Shown here: positions 25,515-41,195 of the stretch, piece by piece | Numbering within the stretch: position 1 is the first letter of the stretch | How the letters are laid out: each line of letters opens with the position of its first letter | DNA from: Sphingopyxis granuli NBRC 100800 | GTDB lineage: Bacteria > Pseudomonadota > Alphaproteobacteria > Sphingomonadales > Sphingomonadaceae | Direction: 5' to 3' | Assembly (NCBI RefSeq): GCF_001591045.1 | Contig: NZ_BCUA01000005.1 | Location: 1 to 64,000, forward strand | DNA length: 64,000 bases | Made by a program: the position numbers and the translations under genes | Notes under the pieces: model-generated | Databases searched by the model: none | Seen by the model: the letters and a program-made list of their open reading frames with translations, nothing else | What the model was told of the DNA's origin: nothing

Positions 25515-25591
25515 CCTGTTCCCCGGCGCAAGCCGGGGTCCAGATGGCATGGCACTGCCCCGCGTGGACCCCGGCTTGCGCCGGGAACAGG
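25515..25591. repeat. Palindromic repeat pair (family C)
   Basis: Facing copies with core CCCCGGCGCAAGCCGGGG (25515-25542 and 25565-25591), each a hairpin and together a large inverted repeat. It lies between the ends of ynfA (plus) and ssrA (minus) and may terminate both. Related copies are at 41124-41195 and, degenerate, at 43896-43969. Confidence 0.8.
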
Positions 25592-34657: not shown

Positions 34658-35838
34658 TTAAGCCCACCCACGAACTTCTCGAACAGATAAAAGCTGTCCT
34701 GCGGCCCTGGGCTCGCCTCAGGGTGATATTGCACGCTGAACGCCTGCTTGCCCGTGATCGCGATGCCGCAGTTCGATCCGTCGAACAGGCTCTTGTGCGT
34801 CTCGACCACGCCCGCGGGAAGCGTCGCGGCGTCGACCGCGAAGCCGTGGTTCATGCTGGTGATCTCGACCACGCCGTCTTCCGCGCGCTGCACGGGGTGG
34901 TTCGCGCCGCGGTGGCCTTGATGCATCTTCACCGTCCTGGCACCGACCGCGATGCCCAGCATCTGGTGGCCGAGGCAGATGCCGAACAGCGGAATGTCGC
35001 GGTCGAGCAGCCCGCGGATCACCGGCACCGCATATTCCCCCGTCGCCGCGGGGTCGCCGGGGCCGTTCGACAAGAACACGCCGTCGGGCTTGTGGCTCAG
35101 CACCTCGTCCAGCGTCGCGGTCGCGGGAACCACGGTGACGCGCGCGCCGGCCTTCACCAGGTTGCGGAAGATATTGTCCTTCGCGCCATAATCGATCGCG
35201 ACGACATGCGGGCGCGCATCGCCCCCGGCGCTCGCATAGCCCTGTCCCAGCGCCCACGCGCCGCCGGTCCAGTCGCCCGTGTCCGCGCGGCTGACGCCCT
35301 TCGCCAGATCGAGGCCTTCCAGCCCAGGCCACCCCCGCGCCATGGCGAGCAGTTCGTCGATGTCGAACCGGCCGTCGGGGCTGTGTGCGATCACGCCGTT
35401 CGGCGCCCCCGCGTCGCGGATGCGGCGGGTCAGCGCGCGGGTGTCGATCCCCGCCAGCCCGATCACGCCCTGTTCGGCCATCCATTCGGGCAGCGGCTGG
35501 ACGCTGCGGAAGTTGCTGGGCGTCGTCGGCAGCTCGCGCGTGATGCAGCCGACCGCGCCGTGCACGCCGCGCTCCATATCCTCCGGGTTCGCGCCGACGT
35601 TGCCGATGTGCGGAAAGGTGAAGGTGACGATCTGCCCGGCATAGCTCGGGTCGGTCAGTATCTCCTGATATCCCGTCATCGCGGTGTTGAAGCAGACCTC
35701 GCCCACCGCCGCCCCGGCGGCGCCATAACCGATGCCCCACAGCAGCGCGCCGTCGGCGAGGACGAGTACGCCGGTGGCGCCGGCGGGCTGTTTTGCGGGC
35801 GCGACTTCAGGCGCGGCGGACGGGGTGGCTGGTGCCAT
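34654..35838 (-). CDS. carA: Carbamoyl phosphate synthase small subunit CarA
   Basis: 394 residues. N-terminal CPSase small domain (LVLADGALLWGIGYGA, GEVCFNTAMTGYQEILTDPS) and C-terminal class I glutamine amidotransferase with nucleophile Cys288 in FGICLGHQML and the His-x-Glu of YHPEASPGP. It supplies ammonia from glutamine to CarB. ATG 35838 chosen; the open frame continues to 36552 but would run through yqeY on the other strand. Divergent from yqeY across 132 bp. Confidence 0.97.
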   Translation of the reverse strand: MAPATPSAAPEVAPAKQPAGATGVLVLADGALLWGIGYGAAGAAVGEVCFNTAMTGYQEILTDPSYAGQIVTFTFPHIGNVGANPEDMERGVHGAVGCITRELPTTPSNFRSVQPLPEWMAEQGVIGLAGIDTRALTRRIRDAGAPNGVIAHSPDGRFDIDELLAMARGWPGLEGLDLAKGVSRADTGDWTGGAWALGQGYASAGGDARPHVVAIDYGAKDNIFRNLVKAGARVTVVPATATLDEVLSHKPDGVFLSNGPGDPAATGEYAVPVIRGLLDRDIPLFGICLGHQMLGIAVGARTVKMHQGHRGANHPVQRAEDGVVEITSMNHGFAVDAATLPAGVVETHKSLFDGSNCGIAITGKQAFSVQYHPEASPGPQDSFYLFEKFVGGLK

Positions 35839-35970: not shown

Positions 35971-36423
35971 ATGATTCGCGAGGACATCAAGGCTGCGCAG
36001 GTTGCCGCGATGAAGGCCGGCGACAAGGCGCGTCTGGGCACCATCCGGCTGATGCTGGCCAAGATCAAGGATCGCGACATCGAGCTTCGCACCGGCACCC
36101 CGCCGGCCGACGACGACGTGCTGGTCGTCGACGTGCTGCAGAAGATGGTCAAGCAGCGGCGCGAATCGATTGCGATGTACGAACAGGGCGGCCGCCAGGA
36201 ACTCGCCGACGCCGAAGCGGCCGAGGTCGCGGTGATCGAGGATTTCCTTCCCACGCAGCTGGACGAGGACGAAGCCAGGGCCGCGATCGCGGCGATCGTC
36301 GCCGAACTCGGCGCGACGAGCGTCAAGGACATGGGCAAGGTCATGGCCGCGGTGAAGGACCGCCACGGCAGCCAGCTCGACATGAGCAAGGCGAGCGGTT
36401 GGGTGAAGGCGGCGCTGGGCTGA
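35971..36423 (+). CDS. GatB/YqeY domain-containing protein
   Basis: 150 residues, the stand-alone YqeY form. Starts MIREDIKAAQVAAMKAGDKARLGTIRLMLAKIK, with IEDFLPTQLDEDEARAAIAAIV and a C-terminal DMGKVMAAVKDRH as in the family. It may assist tRNA-dependent amidation; direct function unproven. GAGG precedes ATG 35971. In sphingomonads it normally precedes dnaG-rpoD; here the DUF559 module separates them. Confidence 0.93.
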   Translation: MIREDIKAAQVAAMKAGDKARLGTIRLMLAKIKDRDIELRTGTPPADDDVLVVDVLQKMVKQRRESIAMYEQGGRQELADAEAAEVAVIEDFLPTQLDEDEARAAIAAIVAELGATSVKDMGKVMAAVKDRHGSQLDMSKASGWVKAALG

Positions 36424-36435
36424 AAAGGCTCTAAC

Positions 36436-36458
36436 TCCTCCCGCAAGCCGGAGGGGGA
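36436..36458. repeat. Degenerate copy of the DUF559-module repeat
   Basis: CTCCTCCCGCAAGC then CGGAGGGGG matches the palindromic core of the 38-bp repeats at 36481 and 36868 with a few changes. It lies just left of the module, giving three copies in all. Confidence 0.7.
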
Positions 36459-36480
36459 CTGGTCGGGTGATCGAGCGCAC

Positions 36481-36905
36481 ATCTCCCCTCCCGCTTGCGG
36501 GAGGGGTCGGGGGAGGGCCTGTTGGACAAGGGCTACAAACGACCGACCGCACGCTCCCGCGAACTACGGCTGAACGCCACCGACGCCGAACGAAAGCTTT
36601 GGGCGCAAATCAGCGCGCGAAAGGTCGCAGGCGTCCGCTTCAATCGCCAGCTCCCGATCGGGCCCTTCATCTGCGATTTCGTGTCGCGCGGCACCAGGCT
36701 AGTCATCGAAGTCGATGGCGGGCAACACGCGGTTGATGTAGCGAAGGACGAAGCACGCACGGCCTATCTGGAAGCGCGGGGTTATCGGGTGATCCGGTTC
36801 TGGAACAATGATGTGTTGGAACGGATCGAGGGGGTCGTGAGCGAGATCGAACACCTGCTTGCAACATGCCCTCCCCCGACCCCTCCCGCAAGCGGGAGGG
36901 GAGAT
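36481..36905. mobile_element. Putative small module: DUF559 gene bounded by 38-bp perfect inverted repeats
   Basis: The left end (36481-36518) and right end (36868-36905) are perfect 38-bp inverted repeats. Each contains an inner palindrome with arms CCCCTCCCGC and its complement around TT (36485-36506 and 36880-36901), so each end is itself a REP-like hairpin. The only gene inside is the DUF559 reading frame. The module is 425 bp, too small to carry a classical transposase, and no target duplication is seen. It lies within the yqeY-dnaG-rpoD cluster, where no gene is normally found. Mobility is inferred from structure. Confidence 0.6.
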
Positions 36906-36908
36906 TAG
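36522..36908 (+). CDS. DUF559 (Vsr-like endonuclease fold) protein
   Basis: About 128 residues from TTG 36522. DUF559 proteins have a Vsr/restriction-endonuclease-like fold. Visible motifs: LRLNATDAERKLWAQI, RFNRQLPIGPFICDFVSRG, LVIEVDGGQH (strand with catalytic Glu and Asp), RTAYLEARGYRVIRFWNNDV. The start is uncertain: TTG 36522 has GGGAGGG four bases upstream, contributed by the left repeat; an earlier TTG at 36495 lies inside the repeat. The last 13 codons (CPPPTPPASGRGD) are the right repeat in translation. The TAG stop shares its G with the dnaG GTG start. Confidence 0.85.
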   Translation: MDKGYKRPTARSRELRLNATDAERKLWAQISARKVAGVRFNRQLPIGPFICDFVSRGTRLVIEVDGGQHAVDVAKDEARTAYLEARGYRVIRFWNNDVLERIEGVVSEIEHLLATCPPPTPPASGRGD

Positions 36909-38791
36909 TGGCCCTCACCCCGCAATGGCTCGACGAACTGCGCTCGCGCGTCACGCTGTCCACGCTGATCGGACGGACGGTGAAGATCACGCGCGCGGGG
37001 CGCGAGTACAAGGCCTGCTGCCCCTTCCATAACGAAAAGACGCCCAGCTTCACGATCAACGACGAAAAGGGCTTCTATCACTGCTTCGGCTGCGGCGCGC
37101 ACGGCGACGCGATCCGCTGGATGACCGACCAGCGCGGCCTGTCGTTCATGGACGCGGTCAAGGAACTCGCCGCCGAAGCGGGCATGGAGGTCCCCGCCCC
37201 CGACCCGCGCGCCGCGAAGAAGGCCGAGGCGCAGGCCAGCCTGCGCGACGTCGTGCAGGCCGCCGCCGACTGGTTCGCGCAGCAGCTCGGCAGCGGCAAC
37301 GGCGCCCCGGCGCGCGACTATCTGGCGAAGCGCGGCATTTCGGACGCGACCCGCGACGCCTTCGGTTTCGGCCTCGCCCCCGACAGCCGCAGCGCGCTAA
37401 AGGAGGCGCTGAAGAAATTTCCCACCGCGATGCTCGTCGAATCGGGGATGCTGATCTCGGTCGAAGAGAAAGAGCCATACGACCGTTTCCGCGGCCGCCT
37501 GATGATTCCGATCCGCGACGCGCGCGGGCGGGTGATCGCGTTCGGCGGGCGCATCCTGGGCGACGGTGAGCCCAAATATCTGAACTCGCCCGACACGCCG
37601 CTGTTCGACAAGGGGCGCACCCTGTTCAACCTCGACAAGGCGAGCCCGGCATCGCGCCGCACCGACCGCATCATCGTCGTCGAGGGCTATATGGACGTGA
37701 TCGCGCTCGCAGAGGCGGGGATCGCCGACGCGGTCGCGCCGCTCGGCACCGCGCTCACCGAAAGCCAGCTCGGCCTGCTGTGGCGGATGGTGCCTGTGCC
37801 GCTGCTCTGCTTCGACGGCGACGCGGCGGGGCAGAAGGCGGCGATGCGCGCCGCGACACGCGCGCTGCCGCTGCTCCGTCCCGGCTTCAGCCTTGCCTTC
37901 GCGACCCTGCCCGCCGGGCAGGACCCCGACGACCTCGTCCGTGCGAAGGGCGCCGAAGGCTTCGCCAGCGTGCTCGACGACGCCCAGCCGCTCGTCGAAC
38001 GGCTGTGGATGCACGAGGTTGCGGCGGCGGCGCTGAACACGCCGGAGGAGCGGGCGGCGCTCAAGGCGCGGCTGCTGGCCCACGCCGACGCGATCCAGGA
38101 TCCCGACGTGCGCCACCATTATCGCGAGGCCTTTCGCGAGCGGCTCGACACGCTGTTCGCGCGCGCGCGGCCCGAACGCGGCCCGCGCGTCCCGTGGGCG
38201 CCGCAGGGGCAGCGCGGCGGCGGGCGGCGCTTTCAGCCCGACCCGCGGCTGCAGCCGCCCGCCGACGAGACGCGGTCGATCGGACAGGCGGGAATCGCCA
38301 CCCCGCTCGCGGCGGCGCTGATCGGCGGATTGCTGCGCTATCCCGAGGTGTTGCGCCGCCACGAGGAGGCGCTGGCGCGACTCCCGGTGCCCGATTCCGC
38401 CGACGCCGAACTGCTCGGCCTGATGCTTGACATCGCGATGCGCGAAGAAGGGCTTGATACCGAGGGGTTGCTTGCCATATTGGAGCCGATGAAAGTGTAT
38501 AATAGGGCGATGGCATTGCTCAGAGCCGACCGAATGCACTTCTCGTTCAATCGACGGCTGGAAGGCGATGAAGGGGTTGCTAAGGCGCGGGAAACCGCGC
38601 TGCGCGACCTTGACGAATATATCGGCGTGCTGGTGACGCAGCCCGAAATCCGTGCCCGGCTGGCCGAGGCGACCGCGGATTTCCAGCGGACGATGGACGA
38701 CGAAGGCCTGGCGCGGCAGCAGAAACTGCGCGCGATGGACGAGGAACTGACCCGCAGGCTGGCCGCGCTGTCCGACAGCAGCCAGCTCTGA
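36908..38791 (+). CDS. dnaG: DNA primase DnaG
   Basis: 627 residues. N-terminal zinc-binding domain (CCPFHNEKTPSFTINDEKGFYHCFGCG), TOPRIM core (EGYMDVIALAEAGI near 256; DGDAAGQKAA near 308) and C-terminal helicase-binding region. It makes primers for replication. The start is GTG 36908: residues MALTPQWLDELRSRVTL agree with homologues, and GGGAGGGGAG lies just upstream. That ribosome binding site is the end of the module's right repeat. The frame is open back to ATG 36866, but that stretch is pure repeat. Followed by rpoD 30 bp on. Confidence 0.96.
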   Translation: MALTPQWLDELRSRVTLSTLIGRTVKITRAGREYKACCPFHNEKTPSFTINDEKGFYHCFGCGAHGDAIRWMTDQRGLSFMDAVKELAAEAGMEVPAPDPRAAKKAEAQASLRDVVQAAADWFAQQLGSGNGAPARDYLAKRGISDATRDAFGFGLAPDSRSALKEALKKFPTAMLVESGMLISVEEKEPYDRFRGRLMIPIRDARGRVIAFGGRILGDGEPKYLNSPDTPLFDKGRTLFNLDKASPASRRTDRIIVVEGYMDVIALAEAGIADAVAPLGTALTESQLGLLWRMVPVPLLCFDGDAAGQKAAMRAATRALPLLRPGFSLAFATLPAGQDPDDLVRAKGAEGFASVLDDAQPLVERLWMHEVAAAALNTPEERAALKARLLAHADAIQDPDVRHHYREAFRERLDTLFARARPERGPRVPWAPQGQRGGGRRFQPDPRLQPPADETRSIGQAGIATPLAAALIGGLLRYPEVLRRHEEALARLPVPDSADAELLGLMLDIAMREEGLDTEGLLAILEPMKVYNRAMALLRADRMHFSFNRRLEGDEGVAKARETALRDLDEYIGVLVTQPEIRARLAEATADFQRTMDDEGLARQQKLRAMDEELTRRLAALSDSSQL

Positions 38792-41123: not shown

Positions 41124-41195
41124 GTTCCCCGGCGAAAGCCGGGGTCCACGCGAGGCAATATTACGCCATCTGGACCCCGGCTTTCGCCGGGGAAC
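41124..41195. repeat. Palindromic repeat pair (family C)
   Basis: Perfect 25-bp inverted arms (41124-41148 and 41171-41195) with inner hairpin core CCCCGGCGAAAGCCGGGG, separated by 22 bp. Same family as 25515-25591. Confidence 0.85.

Follow-up and report, generated by a model that had tools for sequence, protein, structure and literature searches.

In many bacteria the space between genes is filled with short palindromic repeats, and in a stretch of 64,000 nucleotides from Sphingopyxis granuli NBRC 100800 (contig NZ_BCUA01000005.1, positions 1 to 64,000 of the forward strand; hereafter the window) two inverted copies of one such palindrome, resembling a repetitive extragenic palindromic (REP) sequence, enclose a small gene of the DUF559 family in a module (36481-36905) that accounts for most of the sequence separating yqeY from dnaG. 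It is on balance probable that this module is a 'REP-nuclease' unit, that is, the gene of a compact hydrolytic endonuclease enclosed by its own REP-like palindrome in two inverted copies. The layout is general for two unrelated nuclease folds, those of DUF559 and of small GIY-YIG proteins; different modules occupy one and the same chromosomal site in sister genomes, and doublets of palindromes that contain no gene share the ends of the modules. By analogy with REP-associated tyrosine transposases (RAYTs) and REP doublets forming hairpins (REPINs), the module may work as a RAYT-REPIN system without the RAYT, in which a nuclease would drive the spread of the repeats.

The window module and its nuclease

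The initial annotation of the window, made from the letters alone, described a gene bounded by perfect inverted repeats of 38 bp, each itself a REP-like palindrome, and the arms bear this out: over 38 bp, 36481-36518 is the exact reverse complement of 36868-36905, the match stretches to 44 nt with one mismatch (43/44; inner side GGGCCTGTTG as against GGGCATGTTG), and the palindrome CCCCTCCCGCTTGCGGGAGGGG is present in both arms, where its predicted fold is a 9-bp hairpin. The 5' arm (36481..36524, forward strand) comprises this palindrome and an inner foot, TCGGGGGAGGGCCTGTTG, and the 3' arm (36862..36905, reverse strand) is its inverted copy. The third, degenerate palindrome said to lie next door was found at 36434..36456 on the forward strand, where, at a spacing of 50, it and the 5' arm make up an outer pair. 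Outer pairs of this kind, spaced about 45-63 bp, stand beside many of the dnaG-site modules listed, including that of the window (36434-36503).

The nuclease gene occupies 36522..36908 on the forward strand, in an open reading frame (ORF) that is open from 36495 and ends with TAG at 36906-36908. The identification of the enclosed gene as DUF559 stands, the product of the ORF 36495-36908 matching PF04480 at 126.5 bits (curated cut-off 20.6; E 5e-37) with the domain at 36543..36857, forward strand. This is the single Pfam domain above cut-off in the 137-aa ORF, and the Pfam scan of the protein returned neither Y1_Tnp (PF01797) nor any other transposase domain. Among the residues invariant in 54 alignment rows are E32, D61, E72, D74, G75, H78, R101 and N104 (137-aa ORF numbering), of which E32, D61, E72, D74 and H78 are presumably catalytic. 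A predicted structure model (predicted local distance difference test score, pLDDT, 81; predicted template modelling score, pTM, 0.74) matched in Foldseek an endonuclease-like protein of Neisseria (3hrl, E 6e-9), then I-Bth0305I as the second structural match (3r3p, E 4e-5) and Vsr (1vsr, E 3e-3), and as modelled the protein has the EDxHD/Vsr-like nuclease fold. The gene is under purifying selection, with a median ratio of nonsynonymous to synonymous substitution rates (dN/dS) of 0.117 over 119 pairs of type A genes, as compared with 0.066 over 120 pairs for dnaG, and with no stops among 16 type A genes. A search for a defence function with PADLOC gave weak matches alone, the best being 'homing endonuclease' at E 0.008.

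The likely start codon is TTG 36522, where the 5' repeat ends on its inner side, and GGGGGAGGG in the 5' foot could be the ribosome-binding site for it. The proposal that both ends of the protein are translated repeat is thereby only half sustained: the repeat-encoded N-terminus is doubtful because TTG 36522 is the likelier start, and at the C-terminus the frame does read through the 3' repeat to the TAG at 36906-36908, which overlaps the GTG start of dnaG. Immediately before that GTG sits GGGAGGGG of the 3' arm, and the purine-rich arm of the 3' palindrome would appear, from its position, to lie where the ribosome-binding site of dnaG is expected.

Repeat-flanked genes of two nuclease families

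The score of a gene was that of the best local inverted repeat formed by its 5' flank with its 3' flank (200 bp for DUF559, 260 bp for GIY-YIG), with a pass threshold of 16 that was set after the control quantiles had been seen. The window genome has five DUF559 matches, all between inverted REP-like palindromes of several sequences. Across 60 congeneric genomes 105 places were examined in a census that is incomplete; one locus (L002), the contig of which ends inside its 3' repeat, was excluded for want of a 3' flank, and 97 of the remaining 104 reach the threshold. Five of the seven that fail (L034, L038, L044, L109, L115) represent a single site, with short imperfect palindromes of similar look. 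Control ORFs from 20 arbitrary 20-kb stretches reach 16 in 2 of 316 cases, both transposases, short control ORFs in 0 of 149, and ORFs neighbouring the nuclease in named relatives in 1 of 128; with 260-bp flanks and wider inner margins the controls still stand at 2/316 and 2/319, and at a threshold of 20 the counts are 92/104 for DUF559, 42/46 for GIY-YIG and 1/316 for controls. A mispaired-flank control was discarded and its values are unused, the set mixing orthologous loci on both strands with a few wrong coordinates. Beyond the genus, the layout is present at 22 of 29 DUF559 loci sampled class-wide, each from a different family code, and at 74 of the 79 testable loci among the nearest relatives (the best 80 among named genomes), which include records named Desulfosarcina, Chloroflexi, Opitutus and Lysobacter, mostly metagenome bins. 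The initial annotation held that the association would be chance if the repeats flanked unrelated genes equally often or if DUF559 genes usually lacked them; such genes usually carry them and unrelated genes rarely do, and chance pairing is excluded by the control ORFs, the neighbour ORFs and a reversed-pattern control given below.

A second enzyme has the same surroundings. Small GIY-YIG genes have flanking inverted repeats in 43 of 46 cases (30 genomes, 260-bp flanks; 42 of 46 at 200 bp), as against 0 of 4 for the GIY-YIG domain of UvrC, and in many congeners it is a small GIY-YIG gene that occupies the yqeY-dnaG gap, between palindromes unrelated to those of DUF559. For REPs with a GTAG head the candidate enzyme is the RAYT. 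REPs with a CGTC head occur mostly in Alphaproteobacteria and apparently lack a dedicated transposase, according to the excerpted text of a 2013 survey (PMC3733652). Several GIY-YIG flank repeats, CGTCATCCCAGCGAAAGCTGGGATC and CGTCATGCTGAACTTGTTTCAGCATCCA among them, agree with the description of the latter as judged by eye against the text (CGTC head, stem of 8-9 bp, loop of 4-5 nt, CCA tail), and others do not; the window arm (36481-36524) has neither a GTAG nor a CGTC head. From the layout, repeat families previously without an enzyme would have candidates in the DUF559 and small GIY-YIG nucleases. The GIY-YIG gene at G000:C48:18650-18844 is interrupted by a TAG; it shares 67% identity with the CGTC-class clade and is possibly a decayed partner.

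Turnover at shared sites and doublets without a gene

The left neighbour of the window module is yqeY (35971..36423) and the right neighbour dnaG (36908..38791), both on the forward strand. In 56 genomes this gap holds DUF559 type A in 18, type C in 8, a GIY-YIG module in 15 (one gene, in L096, being broken), no module in 13, a gene-less doublet of the GIY-YIG repeat class in one (L075) and some other insert in one (L099); of the 13 module-free gaps, 11 retain one palindrome, and all 26 DUF559 genes at the site are co-directional with dnaG. A tree of yqeY-dnaG, built quickly and weakly supported at many branches, calls for no fewer than 28 changes of state; when the well-supported branches alone are counted, 5 or 6 changes per type are still unavoidable. 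The sister pairs L060/L072 (support 100) and L064/L070 (support 98) have different modules in the gap. In three of the four sister pairs compared, identity over the 50 bp adjoining the gap is 94-96% on each side; in the fourth, L073/L088, the left side has 78% identity and the right side 100%. The module type at the dnaG site is old, because dnaG adjoins the DUF559 gene in 47 of the 80 nearest relatives, mostly records named Sphingomonadales and including Sphingopyxis, Sphingomonas, Novosphingobium and Sphingobium. The module does lie within the conserved cluster that it was said to interrupt, but the interruption is not simply recent, given that shared position and the turnover at genus level. 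Another insertion was seen in DnaG itself, which in L101-L105 (G031, G048, G033, G026, G010) is split in its zinc-ribbon region by some 300-350 aa inserted in frame; the insert of L101, the single one scanned, matches LAGLIDADG_3 and, weakly, an intein splicing domain, and is probably a DnaG intein.

Elsewhere, 151 clustered loci resolve into 22 shared chromosomal sites and 6 singletons, with clades mostly at their own site. The nucleases of L187 and L202, 84% identical, are at two apparently different sites, and a mixed site of L187 with L228 rests on one flank match. Between modules at different sites, nuclease identity correlates with repeat similarity for DUF559 (rho 0.29, p 0.003, 19 representatives) and for GIY-YIG (rho 0.26, p 0.018, 15 representatives), with L206, which has a stop inside its domain, excluded; repeat class thus tends to follow nuclease clade, with modest strength. 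A switch of nuclease at a site can also mean a switch of repeat, as between DUF559 and GIY-YIG at dnaG and at a second site where both have changed (repeat similarity 0.35 between L021 and L023). Movement of the gene itself by transposition is unsupported, the clades mostly keeping their site, and an apparent inversion of modules between relatives was discarded, all 13 pairs being due to L206 read on the wrong strand. Modules lie at housekeeping junctions (L003, L004, L005, L177, L129), namely before trpA, between glyQ and glyS, before biotin carboxylase, before the ribonucleotide reductase small chain and before a class I tRNA synthetase, this last match being weak; neighbours were identified by Pfam, 2 of 10 short pieces from selected neighbours being without a match, and the orientation of neighbours over all sites (4/21 co-directional) was left unused on account of spurious ORFs in high-G+C sequence. 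Relatives are present in 45 plasmid records, several on very large replicons, and this is not taken as evidence of recent movement, and among the matches listed DUF559 is missing from 8 of 60 genomes.

The palindromes also occur apart from any nuclease gene, a matter followed for class A, one CGTC-like class and class B. With at most one mismatch the palindrome core has 90 genomic places, as against one for the reversed control pattern. In the list of perfect class A palindromes of the window genome there are 12 pairs within 1 kb, of which 11 are spaced 67-110 bp and the twelfth, at 395, is the nuclease module; some doublets (L011) have the same inner feet as the module. In the window itself a gene-less doublet at 41124..41195 is built from the 25-nt repeat GTTCCCCGGCGAAAGCCGGGGTCCA, identical to one arm flanking the GIY-YIG gene L135 of the same genome, and the repeat of a second doublet, at 25518..25588, is closely similar; neither is assigned a strand. 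In carA nine relatives have a REP doublet in one linker (window equivalent about 35211-35240), with a single reading frame running through all nine. These doublets are of class A (L306, L310, L313, L330), of the dnaG-site GIY-YIG class (L346, L350) and, by eye, of two further classes (L317; L319 and L345), and the linker has no doublet in the window, L307, L308, L309, L311 and L312, so that carA is a case of presence-absence polymorphism of gene-less units having nuclease-module ends. Repeats are also more numerous where the nuclease is present. Counting the copies that flank the nuclease, and taking 'without nuclease' to mean none among the loci examined, the median number of class A repeats is 42 in the 31 genomes with a class A or C nuclease and 20 in the 29 without (p 9e-5), and that of CGTC-like repeats is 18 in the 8 genomes with the GIY-YIG clade and 1 in the 52 without (p 4e-4).

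Proposed mechanism, alternatives and known systems

The tie between RAYTs and REPs rested, in the portion of PMC2817692 available, on layout, fixed place, co-variation and scattered copies; the same kinds of evidence are at hand here, and DUF559 and small GIY-YIG proteins are therefore candidate enzymes of their palindromes. The description of the module as a REP element with its own nuclease, RAYT-like but with an unrelated enzyme, holds in its layout, its mostly fixed position, its co-variation and its gene-less doublets. In the mechanism that we propose the nuclease would recognise its own palindrome, probably as an extruded hairpin or single-stranded doublet, and would nick or cut there, and host repair would copy a doublet or the entire module into the cut site. 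On this scheme the module, which has the gene, would be autonomous, and the doublets, like REPINs, would be its non-autonomous counterpart. A hydrolytic enzyme of EDxHD/Vsr or GIY-YIG fold would do the presumed job of the RAYT, with repair or recombination completing it, since these folds hydrolyse DNA. Tolerance of modules and doublets inside operons may be explained by the purine-rich arm, which could offer the next gene a ribosome-binding site. A wider proposal, which must be called tentative but is a serious possibility, is that of a second, independent route to REP replicators, in which at least two unrelated hydrolytic nuclease folds are dedicated to palindrome families and spread doublets by cut-and-repair, GIY-YIG is the missing enzyme of CGTC REPs, and rival modules are engaged in a selfish allelic contest for intergenic sites.

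Several observations weigh against nuclease-driven spread. Comparison of dnaG upstream regions, suggested at the outset as a way to the exact insertion point, did yield states with and without the module, but neither a target-site duplication nor a clean empty site was found, and the flanks of the carA inserts are highly variable where a duplication was sought. The nuclease gene mostly stays at one site. Once shared ancestry is taken out, the link to repeat number keeps its direction and is not significant (4.1 against 0.4 of 8 pairs, 3.5 against 0.1 of 5; median p 0.125). Many class A repeats are present in genomes with no matching nuclease among the loci examined (85 in G031, 67 in G025, 59 in G026), G000 has 26 CGTC-class copies and only a stop-containing relative of the cognate nuclease, and for DUF559 class B there are few exact copies other than the two at its flanks. 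DUF_A and DUF_C at dnaG, about 50% identical, share nearly the same repeat (similarity 0.93). In a phylum-wide GIY-YIG sample 8 of 30 loci have repeats and most do not, at least one of the 8 (L287) lying outside the class of the window, and the E. coli DUF559 gene has no flanking inverted repeats.

Among the alternatives, it is unlikely, though worth serious thought, that the gene encodes a free-standing homing endonuclease that cuts one chromosomal site (e.g. yqeY-dnaG) in module-free cells and is copied by repair, the palindromes being its ends or a protection of the site. The confinement of clades mostly to their own sites over the 151 loci and the different modules at yqeY-dnaG in sister genomes, with near-identical flanks in three of four pairs, would follow from this, and both folds are known among homing endonucleases in the excerpts of PMC3943268, I-Bth0305I being the second structural match. 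Such homing leaves unexplained the tens of scattered same-class palindromes and doublets, the co-variation of repeat and nuclease across different sites, and the presence of L187 and L202 at two sites; the 137-aa ORF, moreover, is without the extra DNA-binding region that homing enzymes use (same excerpts). A role in host repair is improbable: DUF559 and small GIY-YIG proteins would be structure- or mismatch-specific nucleases, resolving REP hairpins in replication for example, and would accompany repeats where these are dense. The purifying selection on the gene and Vsr among the structural matches are in keeping with this, as is the Caulobacter DUF559 protein VsrA, a proposed mismatch-repair endonuclease in the text of PMC12907096 at hand, yet so diffuse a role needs no exact placement between two inverted copies of one repeat class, does not require that repeat class change with clade, and sits poorly with the patchy presence of the gene. 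More doubtful still, and largely refuted by the control ORFs, is the view of the repeats as RNA-level or translational elements, with small genes gathering in insertion-tolerant intergenic spots; it would account for modules at operon junctions, glyQ-glyS and the position immediately upstream of trpA among them, and for a purine arm resembling a ribosome-binding site, but none of the short control ORFs is flanked, and the flanked controls are transposases only, plus one neighbour ORF. That RAYT (Y1) transposases spread the palindromes, with the nuclease genes as bystanders, is rejected as scarcely credible, for although REPs elsewhere are linked to RAYTs (PMC2817692, in part), Y1 matches occur in 11 of 60 genomes and class A repeats in 58 of 60, and the inverted repeats at Y1 loci differ from those of the nuclease modules. 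The Y1 genes L392, L394 and L397 have unrelated inverted repeats of their own, containing TTACGGTGACAG.

If the REP-nuclease reading is true, dissemination of palindromes arose at least three times with different enzymes, hydrolytic nucleases are able to drive repeat replicators, and hypothetical proteins having translated-repeat ends are explained. Two small nuclease families, annotated DUF559 or GIY-YIG, become named candidate enzymes for such repeats, and a set of matched enzyme-repeat pairs is now at hand. In the open-access literature, as covered by titles, the beginnings of abstracts and few preprints, no report joining DUF559 or GIY-YIG nucleases with REPs was found; PMC9465073, the single paper with both 'GIY-YIG' and 'extragenic palindrom', has them in unrelated places in the portions seen, and RepRanger (PMC12306157) is without the words endonuclease, RAYT and transposase.

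The module shares features with several known systems. With the Vsr and VsrA mismatch endonucleases it has in common the DUF559 family and a Vsr-like fold, and the palindrome-flanked layout is unmentioned in the available part of PMC12907096. Insertion sequence (IS) elements and miniature inverted-repeat transposable elements likewise have terminal inverted repeats around one gene, and gene-less derivatives, but here the gene is mostly at one site per clade, no target duplication was seen and the enzyme is a hydrolytic nuclease; an IS element was rejected on the lack of a transposase domain and the mostly fixed sites of the clades. I-Bth0305I (PDB 3r3p) and the GIY-YIG homing endonucleases resemble the modules in catalytic fold, patchy presence at fixed sites and alternative alleles, and the module differs in having no intron or intein, a single small domain and multicopy palindromes at its flanks. 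The CGTC REPs, as excerpted in PMC3733652, are matched by several GIY-YIG flanks that read CGTC, stem, short loop, stem and CCA and form inverted pairs, with the difference that here GIY-YIG genes lie between such repeats. The closest parallels are drawn with RAYTs, REPtrons and REPINs as given in parts of Nunvar 2010 (PMC2817692) and Di Nocera 2013 (PMC3733652), where an enzyme gene also lies between two inverted REPs, orthologs hold their position, repeat class follows the enzyme and gene-less inverted doublets are scattered. The enzyme there is a Y1 (HuH) transposase, whereas here it is a DUF559 EDxHD/Vsr-fold or GIY-YIG nuclease; the DUF559 palindromes are CTCCC-rich, without a GTAG or CGTC head, and here two unrelated folds alternate at one site.
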